A model generated the notes under the pieces. The model saw nothing but the letters and a program-made list of their open reading frames with translations, was not told the origin of the DNA and did no database searches. Shown piece by piece: positions 56,638 to 63,220 of a stretch of DNA of 64,000 bases (position 1 is the first letter of the stretch; each line of letters opens with the position of its first letter). Position numbers and translations under genes: made by a program. The DNA comes from Caenorhabditis elegans (Eukaryota > Nematoda > Chromadorea > Rhabditida > Rhabditidae), in assembly GCF_000002985.6 (NCBI RefSeq), contig NC_003284.9:8060001-8124000 (forward strand). The letters are read 5' to 3'.

Positions 56638-59600
56638 ATGGTGGCTCGTAGAAAAGGAGAACGCGTGGTTCGAAAGAATGAAGTGGAAAATGTGCAGCAG
56701 AGAGCATGTGCCAACAGACGGGAACGTCAAAGGACCAAGGTAAATGTTCATTCAATTGTTTTTGAGAGTTTCGGGTTGTTTAATATATTTTGAAAATGAC
56801 CGCCTTTCTCTCAAAATGTTATTTTAGAGGCTTCAACCTAGATCAGCAGCTCGAAAAAAAAAACAGAAATTAAATATATAGTTTTTTTTAACGTAGTCAA
56901 ACATAGTAACCTAGAATTGATACTATCATTTTATAAATGAAAAAAACCATGTCAGGTCAGTCAGGTCATTGTTTGTTGCATCTATTCTGCGTACGACTTT
57001 CACACAATTTTTCAATGACAGTTTTGCGTTGAGAACAACTTTTGATCTTTGTTATGTAATTAGTATATTTGAGCAAATTTTTCTCTTCTTAGCAATAAAA
57101 TGTCGAATTTTCAACTGAAGTTATCAAGTTTGAGTGAATTATAAAATTAGTGCTAGCCATGTAAGCAATGAAATATCCCCTTCACACGAAATCCTATAAA
57201 TTAGTGAGCGAACACTCCAAAAAAACCGGGTCATTAAGATTATCTGTTACTGTTCAGTATCGTTGTAATCCATACCCCTTCATTGCACGCTTTGGTAATT
57301 TTTTCACGTTTTTTTCCATTGATTAAGGTACAGTTTCAGTAGATCAATCCGCAAAATTTGAAAAAAATCTGTTGATTATAAGTATGTTCACCCGTATCGA
57401 GGAAATAAACGTGGAATAAAATACTAAATTTCGCAAAGAAAAGGTATGACTAAATAAACATGATTTTCGGTCTTTTCGACATCAAAAAATGACAAAAATG
57501 TGCTTTTTTTAATATTCAAACATGTTTTTTTGCGTCAAAACCGTTTCTGAACTTTTTTAAAAGGTATTATTCTGTAATTGGAACTGTAGAGCCATTGCTT
57601 CTTTTCAAAATTTATATAAATATTCCAGTTCTTTACTTCTACTTCCCCCTACGATCTAGTATTTAAAAAATTAGTTACAAAAAAATGTTACCGGGGAACC
57701 AATTTTAAAACCATAACTCGGCAACCAAATTGAACACGACTCTTTCGCATATCGCATATCATTTACAGCTTCCGTTCCCAAGCCATATCTCACACTTTTC
57801 CGACACCTCAATAACTAGTTTCACATATCACCCTGACCGCCAGGCTCGACGACACACTTTATTGTTCTCCCGCGCAATGTTTATGGCTCATCATCTGGCA
57901 TGCTCGCTAGCTCGCTGCGTTCCAAAACTCCTAACGTCGCCTTCGTTTACGGCTAACATTAAACCACTTCCTCAACTCCTTCCGTAAGAATTTTGAGTTG
58001 CTTTTCGGAGTACGGTAGAGGAAGATGCAAGACGCGAGATGGGAGAAGAGGGTGGGGGGCAATAAAAAGAAAAGGTCCCTTCTGAATCCTGAGAACATCT
58101 GGAGACAATTTCAAAATATCACAGGAATCAGAGAGGCTGAAGGCAGAAAACTTATTTTTCTTCTTTCCACGGACGACATTTCTGAGCCAAGGCGCTAGCT
58201 AAACAAAACGTTTTTGATGGGGAAAATGAGTGATGGTTGAGCAATATTTTTGCCGAATTTAAAAGATATTGATGATGGCGATTTTTTAAATAAAGTCTAA
58301 GTTGTTAGCAGTTTTTAAAAACAATTACCAAAATATTAAGTTAATTAGTAATTCCACACCGTCTTTGAAACGCCAAATGGAGTCTTGAAACTATTGCAAA
58401 TTGCAATGCATTCCGAATATCACTAAAAGTGCACGACAACTACCAATTGCCGTAAACTTCAAAACCTCGTGGCGTTAAGCCCTTTTTCAAAAAAAACCTA
58501 AATGAATACAAAAACGCGGTAGTGTTTTCTAAATATAATTATGTTTGAAAACTACCAAAAAAAACCTGGCAATTGGCAATTTCGGCAAGTTGGTCAATTT
58601 TAGCAATTGCCGGAAATTGCCGAAAACTGTGATAACAACTATCCTAATGACCTAATGAGTTCTTCTCTATCTTGATATGTTTATGCTTTATAAACATTAT
58701 CTACTGTTTATGCGCGAAAAAAAACATTTAGATCACTCGTATTATGATTTGTTTACAGGAACTCAATGACGCTTTCACACTTTTGCGTAAACTGATCCCG
58801 TCGATGCCCTCAGACAAGATGAGCAAGATCCACACACTACGCATTGCAACCGATTACATATCCTTCCTTGACGAGGTTTTGAGTTGGAGATACTGTGGGA
58901 TAATTGAATAAAACAATTTCAGATGCAAAAAAATGGATGCAAACTGTATGGCCATTCGATCTTCGACGAAAAACGTGGATACAATTTACAGTCGGCTTTC
59001 AATATGTGGAGGGGTAACAATGGATACACACCAATTGCTGGACCTTCACAGTTGCCTCCACTACAATCTGGTGAGCAAAGATGTTAATTCATTTTCAATT
59101 TTTTATTTGTTCCGTAGGCTGGAACATGTTCATAAACTTAGCATTTTCCGCTTTCAAAATTAGGCAAAACTATGAAAATAGAAGTACGAAACGTTTTTTG
59201 AGTTTAATGGATTATAATATTTTCGAAAAATGTCAGGTTATGATTAGAGCTATCATTTTTCCCGAATTATTTGATCATCAATTTACACGAACCTAAAATT
59301 GACTACATCAAAATAATGGGGTAATAACTGATGTAGAAACAATTCGTTTCAAAATTTTCAGTTGTAATTTTAGTTAGCTAATGGGGCTAATAACAGCACT
59401 AGTATTTTCTAGCTGTTAAAATTCTAAAGCTTTTATGTTATCTTATAGGAAACTGTATCAGGGATAAATGAAAAGTTAACCACTTTCTTAAACATTTATC
59501 GAACTTATAAACGTCGTACTTGTTTTCATATAACCTATGTAAAAATTATCATCAAAATTTAAAATTCTTTGCTTAGTTTTGCAGCCTCTATTAGTCTTGC

Positions 59601-60409: not shown

Positions 60410-63220
60410 TCATTTGACCACTAAGCCATGCAATGATGAACCAATTTCAACTTGACATTCACACCCAGTAGTGGTATCAATTGACTCTTTTACCCAGTCA
60501 TCGCCATTCTGTCTCATCACATTGATCGTCCTCATTATTGGCTTGCATTCTCCGAATCCTAAAAAAAGTGTGGGTCAGCGGCGTGATGGATGGGCGTCTA
60601 TGAAAAAAAACGAGCCCATCGGAGCCCAAATGTCAAATACCTGAAAGGCATCCATCGTCGTTGTGGTCGCAATTGACCTCATTCAAATAGTTGGGGTAAT
60701 AGTCGGCGGGAAGCTTTCTCCACTGCCAACACAAATTGCACAACCCACACCATTCGGAATTCGTTTGAAGAGCTTCACCACGGCGGTACTGACATCCAAG
60801 ACTAGTGACTACTCCAAGCACTGAAAAACAGAGTTATCACTAAATTACTGATATTGTATCGGAAAGATTTGCATTTTTATTAGGATGGTCATAGATCTAA
60901 ATCTAAATTTAAATTTTTTAAATTTCCAGTTAAAGTTAAGACGAAGTGCCAAATTTTTGAAAAAAAAATCTTAAAAAGAAATCCAGAGCAATTTAGAATG
61001 CTTCGACAATTAGAATGTCTTAACACAAATAATTGAAACAGAATTAAAGTATGATAATCGTGGGAAAACTTTTTTTGGTCGGCTTCCAAATTTATGAGTG
61101 GCAAAAACTGTACAATTTTCACTTTTTTACTGTCAATAAAAAATTTTCAAGCATGTTTGAAAATTTTTACTATGATATTTAACTATTTTGGTCCTATAGG
61201 AGTAGTTTGAAACAATTTACCCACTCGCGCTACTTTGCCTTTAAAACATTTTTTACTCCGTCATGAAGAGTTTTGATTCAAAAGTTGTAATATTGAAAAA
61301 ACTTTTAGTAAAAGTTAAAAAATGAATAATTTATACAATAAGATTTATTAAGCAAAGAAGTTGTTTTAAAAAAGTACAATTTCAGCTTACCTGGCCGGTT
61401 TTTTGGATCAGTTGATGTGAATGAATCAGTTGAAGTATCTTGATCAATTGTGTTATCATCAATATCATTATTTAAAGAATCGGTGTCAGGTGTTGTATTC
61501 ATTAACACAAATCGTTTAGTAAGTCGCTAAAAACATTTTTAATCTAAAAAAACTTGTAGTGAAGTTGGAATTAAATGGGCTACCATGTTTTTATTAAAAT
61601 TATCTAACAAGCGCACCTTTTTTATCTTATACTTGTTAACTGTCGAGTACTCCTCACTGAACCTCTTTTTTCTTGAATGTTGATCACAAGATCCTGTTGT
61701 ACTACCTATTAAAACTTTCGATATTTTTTGATTGAAGTTGGTAAAGTTGATTGAGCAGTTGTGGAAAATAGCCAATAACCAACTCACCAAGTTTTATAGC
61801 CAAAGCATTTCTTTGAGCTGTCAGTGTTGCGTTGTCAGCGGCCCCTATATTTGGATTTGCCAGAAAGCCATTGAGAAGTGACATTTTACAACTCATACAT
61901 GCATATGTAGGGCACTCTCCATTGACAGACTGGTCCTGAATACAAATTTGCAAACGACTCTTAAAAATTTATGCTGAGAAACTGACCAGCGGAGTCCCTG
62001 CTCCAAACGCGGCAATCGATACTTTTGTTGTCATCACGGACGGGCCGGCCTAAAAACTGAATTTAAAAAAATTGAATTTTTGTAAATTTAAAACCATTGA
62101 CGCCATTGGAACATCGCCATCAACACTTTCATAATCTGGCTTTTGACCGTCTTCACTTCTCACAGAACCACCACCGGCTGCTCCAAATCCATTAGGTGGC
62201 TGGAAAAGTGTAGCTTGATCCGTACTTGCCAAATTTGGAAATGTGAACATTGCCTCATCTAGTGACTCCGCCATCATTGAACTGTCATATGAGAGACACG
62301 GCTGACTGGAAGATTTAGTCATTCTCCGATTACAACACTGAAATACAACATGTAAAAAAAAATCTTGTGAAAGTTTATGTCCTTTCAAACTTGAGACAAA
62401 ACTAAAGTTTCTCAAGGACACACCAATGTCAACAACTTTGGAAGTTCAAGAGCTTTAAGTTGTATGTATTAGAGAACCAAAAATTCGAATTTCGTAAGAT
62501 GAATTTTTTTAATATAAATCGCAAAATGAATAGTGGGAAAAAAGTTCAAAAGTTATCACCTAAACCTTTTATTTGTACAAACTGTTAGTTTTTTGGTGCA
62601 AATGCTTGCAAAACTGTAGTTGAAACTTTTAAACTACGATAAATAAATTTTTTGAAAATTACTGATATTTTACTTGATTATAATAATTGATGGTAATAAT
62701 AATAAGGGTACTTACAATTGATTTATAAATACCAATGTTGAAATAGTTTTATTTGTTCTTTTATTATCCAAAGTTGGGCATCAATCCACTTAATCAGATG
62801 TTAATTTAAAAATAAAATAATTTATTGAAAATTTGAGATTTTAGCTAACGAAGTTAGCCCTTCTGTTGCAAAATTTTTGAATATCGTTACATAATTGTGA
62901 ACACTTTAAGAATTCATATTATGAAGTTCGGTCTTGTGGGCTTAGATTGAGTGTTTTGGAACAATAAAAACTATTTCTCTATTCCATGTGTTTTATACGA
63001 CTGGCGTAACATATAGGGATCCTAAATATTTATTCACTCTTTTTTCAGTTATAGCTGATGGATATCAAAAAGATTTTCGAAACCCTCAAAACAGTTTAAA
63101 GTGTGAAGTTTGCCTGCGTTTACTTTTTCGATGACTCACCTTGGTCACAATAGCGGAGTTGCGACTATTAAATAACAGACAGAGTGAAAAATAAGTCGCT
63201 AATAATGACCAGTTGCTCAT
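60410..63220 (-). CDS. Secreted preproprotein with Trunk/Noggin-like C-terminal cystine knot, 362 aa
   Basis: Coding exons in transcript order: 63140-63220, 62095-62337, 61987-62049, 61788-61935, 61617-61705, 61391-61526, 60641-60820, 60410-60558 (1089 nt). Exon 1 encodes a signal peptide (MSNWSLLATYFSLCLLFN). The pro-region is acidic and Ser/Asp-rich. A furin-type site HSRKKR ends at about residue 192, with further basic sites (KYKIKK, RLTKR) before a Thr/Asp-rich linker. The last ~105 residues are cysteine-rich: LGCQYRR, WCGLCNLCWQW, LPADYYPNYLNEVNC, GCLSGFGECKP, INVMRQNGDDW and TTTGCECQV. The order C, P-x-Y-x5-C, C, C-x-P, V-x-R, W, C-x-C is that of Noggin and of the Trunk/PTTH growth factors. 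So I infer a processed extracellular ligand or antagonist. The gene model is strong; the family call rests on pattern memory. Confidence 0.8.
61080..61255 (-). repeat. Copy of the TTTAAA/GTAGCGC repeat in an intron
   Basis: On the minus strand this reads TTTTAAAGGCAAAGTAGCGC, then GAGTGGGTAAATTG, CTATAGGACCAAAATAG, and further on AAAGTGAAAATTG with TTTTTGCCACTCATAA. These are the motifs and order of the copies at 302, 1446 and 4446. It lies in intron 6 of the cystine-knot gene, and only one end is recognisable. Confidence 0.65.

Follow-up and report, generated by a model that had tools for sequence, protein, structure and literature searches.

A gene within a 64,000-base stretch of the Caenorhabditis elegans genome (the window) probably encodes a secreted ligand of the Noggin/Trunk/PTTH group and, judged from its sequence, is one of seven paralogs, a family that an earlier note on the same DNA had missed. 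The window covers positions 8,060,001–8,124,000 of contig 6, which we take to be chromosome X, of an assembly of 100,286,401 bases in seven contigs that served for all genome searches. The gene, its paralogs, the register of their cysteines and a pro-region motif found in five of the seven members can be read from the genome itself. Matches to named families all fall short of conventional significance.

Gene model and predicted protein

The gene lies on the minus strand at window positions 63220..60410, where the earlier note had placed it, and its eight exons, when spliced and translated, give a frame of 1089 bases that is open up to and including the stop codon and encodes 362 amino acids (Table 1). 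All seven introns are GT...AG introns with consistent phases. The weakest-looking of the splice sites is the donor of exon 2 (GTTTTA), which opens the 45-base intron before exon 3. The gene is more than a chance arrangement of open frames, given that exons 7 and 8 both have matches elsewhere in the genome, and that the pattern C-x8-L-x5-P-x7-C occurs once in the six-frame translation of the 64 kb, in exon 7. Just beyond the gene, a plus-strand open reading frame near 58732 contains an HLH domain (Pfam E 4.9e-12). This fits the neighbour named in the earlier note, and we take the bHLH gene to be hlh-8; its strand makes the two genes a convergent pair.

Table 1 Exons and predicted cleavage site of the window gene, in window coordinates
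Feature	Position	Strand	Content
Exon 1	63140..63220	-	Start codon; residues 1-27 form a hydrophobic N-terminus resembling a signal peptide (by eye)
Exon 2	62095..62337	-	Pro-region with conserved motif CLSYDSSMMAESLDEAMFTFPNL
Exon 3	61987..62049	-	Pro-region, 63 bases
Exon 4	61788..61935	-	Pro-region with C-x4-C-x2-C
Exon 5	61617..61705	-	Carries furin-like RKKR
RKKR furin-like site (predicted cleavage)	61662..61673	-	Residues 190-193
Exon 6	61391..61526	-	Tail of second basic cluster, then acidic spacer
Exon 7	60641..60820	-	First half of knot-like domain: C263, C278, C281, C284, C304, C311; matches paralogs
Exon 8	60410..60558	-	Second half of knot-like domain: C318, hairpin, C346-x-C348, stop codon; matches a paralog

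From its N-terminus, the protein comprises a hydrophobic start (by eye), a pro-region with cysteines, the RKKR site, a second basic cluster (KKRLTKR, residues 207–213), an acidic spacer and a cysteine-rich domain (residues 254–362). Every motif that the earlier note had quoted from this protein (WCGLCNLC, PNYLNEVNC, GC, ECKP, MRQNGDDW and GCEC) is present, as is RKKR. However, the acidic stretch, which that note had placed in the pro-region ahead of RKKR, follows the second basic cluster, at about residues 222–248; cleavage at RKKR would therefore leave it on the mature protein, as a spacer.

Paralogs in the C. elegans genome

A six-frame protein search with the cysteine-rich domain identified five further loci in the same genome, at V:9.166, III:10.11, X:3.247, I:0.888 and X:15.42 Mb, with best-exon E-values from 8.2e-12 to 1.3e-3. 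When the X:15.42, I:0.888 and V:9.166 paralogs were themselves used as queries, the same set of loci was returned. A sixth paralog at V:9.578 Mb (V:9,578,644–9,579,946) matched weakly (E 1.03) and was spotted partly on account of its fitting cysteine order. Three exons together supply its complete set of cysteines, and used as a query it matched, apart from itself, two other members (E 0.11 and 0.23). From the sequences we count seven members, that at V:9.578 Mb with less certainty. We dropped two other weak matches, one at V:11.47 Mb and one at III:7.64 Mb, because by eye their cysteine order did not match.

Across the seven members 13 columns are invariant, eight of them cysteines. The six knot cysteines occur in order, with the terminal C-x-C, in 7/7 members and are profile-aligned to those of Noggin and PTTH. 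A phase-1 intron in the loop preceding the third knot cysteine (C318) is found in six of the seven, in four of them at an identical LSG position. The V:9.578 Mb member is the most divergent, and its C-terminal end, NCEDWIVEQIQLPVACQC, looks closest to PTTH by eye.

Similarity extends into the pro-region. Four of the six paralogs carry the motif CLSYDSSMMAESLDEAMFTFPNL ahead of the knot, which makes five of the seven members when the window gene is included; its scores in the four (74, 68, 54 and 28) exceed the maximum of 26 among 150 control stretches. At V:9.578 Mb the motif is weak, its score being reached by three of the 150 controls, and it is absent from the stretch upstream of the knot at X:15.42 Mb. 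The sole non-self matches of the window gene's pro-region in the whole genome adjoin the III:10.11 and V:9.166 knot paralogs, although both are weak (E 0.089 and 0.095). The C-x4-C-x2-C motif has a likeness by eye in three paralogs that does not rise above controls. Judged by sequence features, the seven genes probably constitute a subfamily of nematode type, set apart by an additional conserved pair of cysteines and by its own pro-region.

Family profiles and cysteine spacing

We searched profiles of the family against the sequences in the PDB. When the profile of all seven members was run against all 177635 distinct sequences, PTTH headed the list (E 0.029), followed by Noggin (E 0.31), and each aligned over the full domain with the knot cysteines in register. 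The remaining nine matches at E≤10 were amylosucrase chains with E-values of 1.9 or worse, and no IL-17, Spaetzle or neurotrophin chain appeared at E≤10. With six members, Noggin ranked third (E 1.5), after two CW zinc-finger chains that match a short motif; PTTH was unlisted, and there were again no IL-17 chains at E≤10. PTTH and Noggin rose to the first two ranks once the V:9.578 Mb paralog was added, so that the ranking depends on this divergent seventh member. In one control, with the non-cysteine columns permuted and the cysteines fixed, PTTH and Noggin were both lost and no cystine knot was retrieved.

In profile–profile alignment with hhalign, the scores with seven members were 30.6 for PTTH, 26.5 for Noggin, 24.2 for IL-17A, 20.0 for NGF, 18.7 for the worm IL-17 and 15.3 for Spaetzle. 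Among 100 cysteine-fixed shuffles for each comparison, none reached the observed score for the first five and nine did so for Spaetzle. With six members the scores were 28.0 for Noggin, 22.5 for PTTH and 21.5 each for IL-17A and the worm IL-17, and of 200 shuffles one reached the observed score for PTTH and none those for Noggin, IL-17A or the worm IL-17. From these rankings the domain looks related to a wider knot superfamily, with PTTH and Noggin nearest. In addition, the gapless pattern C-x8-L-x5-P-x7-C, which was defined after viewing these sequences, is present in all seven paralogs, Noggin and PTTH and in none of four cystine-knot rivals.

Proposed maturation and mode of action

We propose that the signal-like N-terminus would be removed and that a proprotein convertase, probably furin-like, would cut the precursor at RKKR or at the next basic cluster. 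The disulphide pairing of the Noggin knot provides the basis for assigning cysteine partners, and by this analogy the released domain would form a knot through C281–C318, C304–C346 and C311–C348, to which C263–C284 may add a fourth disulphide. C278, found at that place in the window gene only among the seven paralogs, is a candidate dimer-linking cysteine. The released domain would then act on a cell-surface receptor. By analogy, the most likely mode of action is activation of that receptor in the manner of Trunk and PTTH, which act on Torso-type receptor kinases, rather than clip-type trapping of BMP.

A member of the Noggin/Trunk/PTTH group could instead serve mainly as an antagonist of BMP (DBL-1), as Noggin does. 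We consider this rather unlikely, if the best placed of the alternatives. The domain resembles Noggin in profile searches, and Noggin leads the six-member hhalign comparison; however, PTTH outscores Noggin once the seventh member is included, and the pro-region of the window protein has no Pfam family match. Action in the manner of Noggin proper, through the clip, is also not borne out by the Noggin profile, which the window protein matches at positions 130–181 of 211 and at no others. In the accessible part of a study of aphids (PMC9071555), the N-terminal clip by which Noggin contacts BMP is given as human residues 28–48, and members of the group are shown to be capable of targeting BMP, receptor kinases or the two together. 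Given that work and the unmatched clip, both roles could be open to the window protein, and a short, divergent clip could escape detection by the profile. Our preferred reading is nevertheless receptor activation of the Trunk/PTTH type.

IL-17 and other cystine-knot families

A divergent IL-17-type cytokine, with the same knot-derived fold and signalling through an IL-17 receptor, would account for some of the single-sequence results. When the isolated domain was compared with Pfam in three different cuts, IL17 was the top match (E 0.0053–0.032), followed by Noggin (E 0.049–0.071), all below cut-off; the IL17 score was at most 17.6 bits against a cut-off of 24. The full protein matched Noggin (E 0.16, also below cut-off) and nothing else. 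Thus the single-domain profile search that the earlier note had proposed puts IL17 slightly ahead of Noggin, with neither reaching its threshold. The yardstick PTTH of Bombyx behaves similarly, matching Noggin at E 0.0081 and IL17 at E 0.29, both below cut-off. Since this accepted member also falls below cut-off, weak Pfam scores appear normal for the Noggin/Trunk/PTTH group, although membership is not proven thereby.

Across single proteins of the family, Pfam matches were likewise weak; they went to either IL17 or Noggin, apart from Spaetzle in one paralog and a CW zinc finger in two. We rejected the CW zinc finger, which corresponds to a short C..C..WRKLP match. IL17 was matched by one of six members in one scan and by none of four proteins in another, three of them common to both scans. 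The window protein had no match to Pfam Spaetzle, the domain alone had none in NCBIfam, and phmmer with the single domain retrieved nothing from the PDB at E≤10. The Pfam IL17 model, run against the whole genome, found a worm IL-17 exon and missed the window gene, in which an intron interrupts the domain. That exon (V:10,530,186–10,530,392, Pfam IL17 E 6.2e-10) served as our own-genome IL-17 control. The Pfam Noggin model gave a single match in the whole genome, at X:11,220,932–11,221,138 (E 4.5, profile positions 68–136); it sits in a 548-residue open frame and is probably due to chance.

Structure prediction, from which the earlier note had expected a cystine knot, did not confirm one. AlphaFold single-sequence models, one covering the full protein and the other residues 258–355, had mean pLDDT values of 36.6 and 47.7, and their confident part was a hairpin around residues 315–350, nothing else. 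Foldseek returned 234 matches at E≤10, none below 0.001, and the best 50 of the 234 were all IL-17 entries (top E 0.38). We count this result as weak evidence for IL-17, since the model is poor and the PDB is rich in IL-17, with at least 25 distinct IL-17-family sequences and one distinct sequence each for Noggin and PTTH. Foldseek matches to IL-17 beyond the hairpin were judged meaningless, because the model is confident in the hairpin alone.

IL-17A also exceeds all its shuffles in both hhalign comparisons and, like the window protein, has a proline eight residues ahead of the first C-terminal knot cysteine. However, the family profiles retrieved no IL-17 chain despite the number of such sequences in the PDB, and both IL-17A and the worm IL-17 exon lack C-x8-L-x5-P-x7-C. 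The IL-17 fold is without one knot disulphide, whereas the two cysteines concerned are kept in all seven members here, where they are predicted to pair. We conclude that an IL-17-type identity is unlikely. It is highly improbable that the protein is a ligand of the Spaetzle/neurotrophin type with a Toll- or Trk-like receptor: the V:9.578 Mb member alone matches Pfam Spaetzle (E 0.015, 16.3 bits against a cut-off of 27) and NGF scores above its 100 shuffles, but Spaetzle is lowest of six in hhalign and within reach of its shuffles, and both families are absent from the seven-member PDB matches and lack the spacing pattern. Membership of the Noggin/Trunk/PTTH group, as the earlier note suggested, thus stays the best-supported assignment on the strength of the first two ranks in the seven-member PDB search and of the cysteine spacing; the single-domain search did not decide between IL17 and Noggin, and the structure models did not confirm a knot.

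Comparison with known ligands

In the window protein and Bombyx PTTH (PDB 5aoq_L) the six knot cysteines agree in order and in spacing, C-x8-L-x5-P-x7-C included, and both proteins have the terminal C-x-C. Trunk and PTTH are secreted precursors with basic cleavage sites, and a precursor of this kind is also predicted for the window protein; Trunk is compared here by description alone. In contrast to both, the worm family has an extra cysteine pair, C263 and C284, that is invariant in 7/7 members, its own pro-region motif and seven genes in one genome. Human Noggin (PDB 1m4u) aligns over the full domain and has, like the window protein, C-K-P after the third knot cysteine. It differs in that the N-terminal part of its profile is unmatched by the window protein, which has a furin-like site and is without Noggin's last cysteine after C-x-C.

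Relation to published work

An eLife survey of moulting hormones from 2019 (PMC6660194) reports, in the part accessible to us, that searches for a trunk orthologue succeeded in other nematodes but not in the C. elegans genome, and it describes this species as devoid of PTTH signalling. The nematode trunk genes of that survey, which we can liken to ours by description alone, probably belong to the identical gene group. According to the accessible text of another study (PMC7909313), the origin of ptth from a noggin-like gene is placed exclusively in insects. The literature that we searched, which included parts of PMC6660194, PMC9071555, PMC11226491, PMC7909313 and PMC2841177 and lay mostly outside subscription journals, contained no description of a seven-gene C. 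elegans family; the window gene was looked up by guessed cosmid-series names rather than by its WormBase name. Given this and the fact that the group itself is known, the finding would extend the Noggin/Trunk/PTTH group to C. elegans, with seven genes, and is not a new kind of ligand.

C. elegans being the nematode most amenable to experiment, seven candidate genes there would make the ancestral role of the group, whether receptor-kinase activation or BMP inhibition, directly testable. A bolder reading, which we regard as distinctly unlikely, is that C. elegans has kept and multiplied a Trunk/PTTH-type hormone system, in which seven processed knot ligands, marked by an extra disulphide and a pro-region of nematode type, would act through an unrecognised receptor kinase that times development or moulting.

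Surroundings of the chromosome I paralog

The region around the I:0.888 Mb paralog (L014; chromosome I, near 885–894 kb) is repeat-bearing. It contains an interstitial TTAGGC array of 33 copies with 76% matches (L014 1168–1369), a 341-base unit repeated about twice in tandem (L014 2681–3322) and an array in which a 22-base unit recurs about 57 times (L014 8553–9801).
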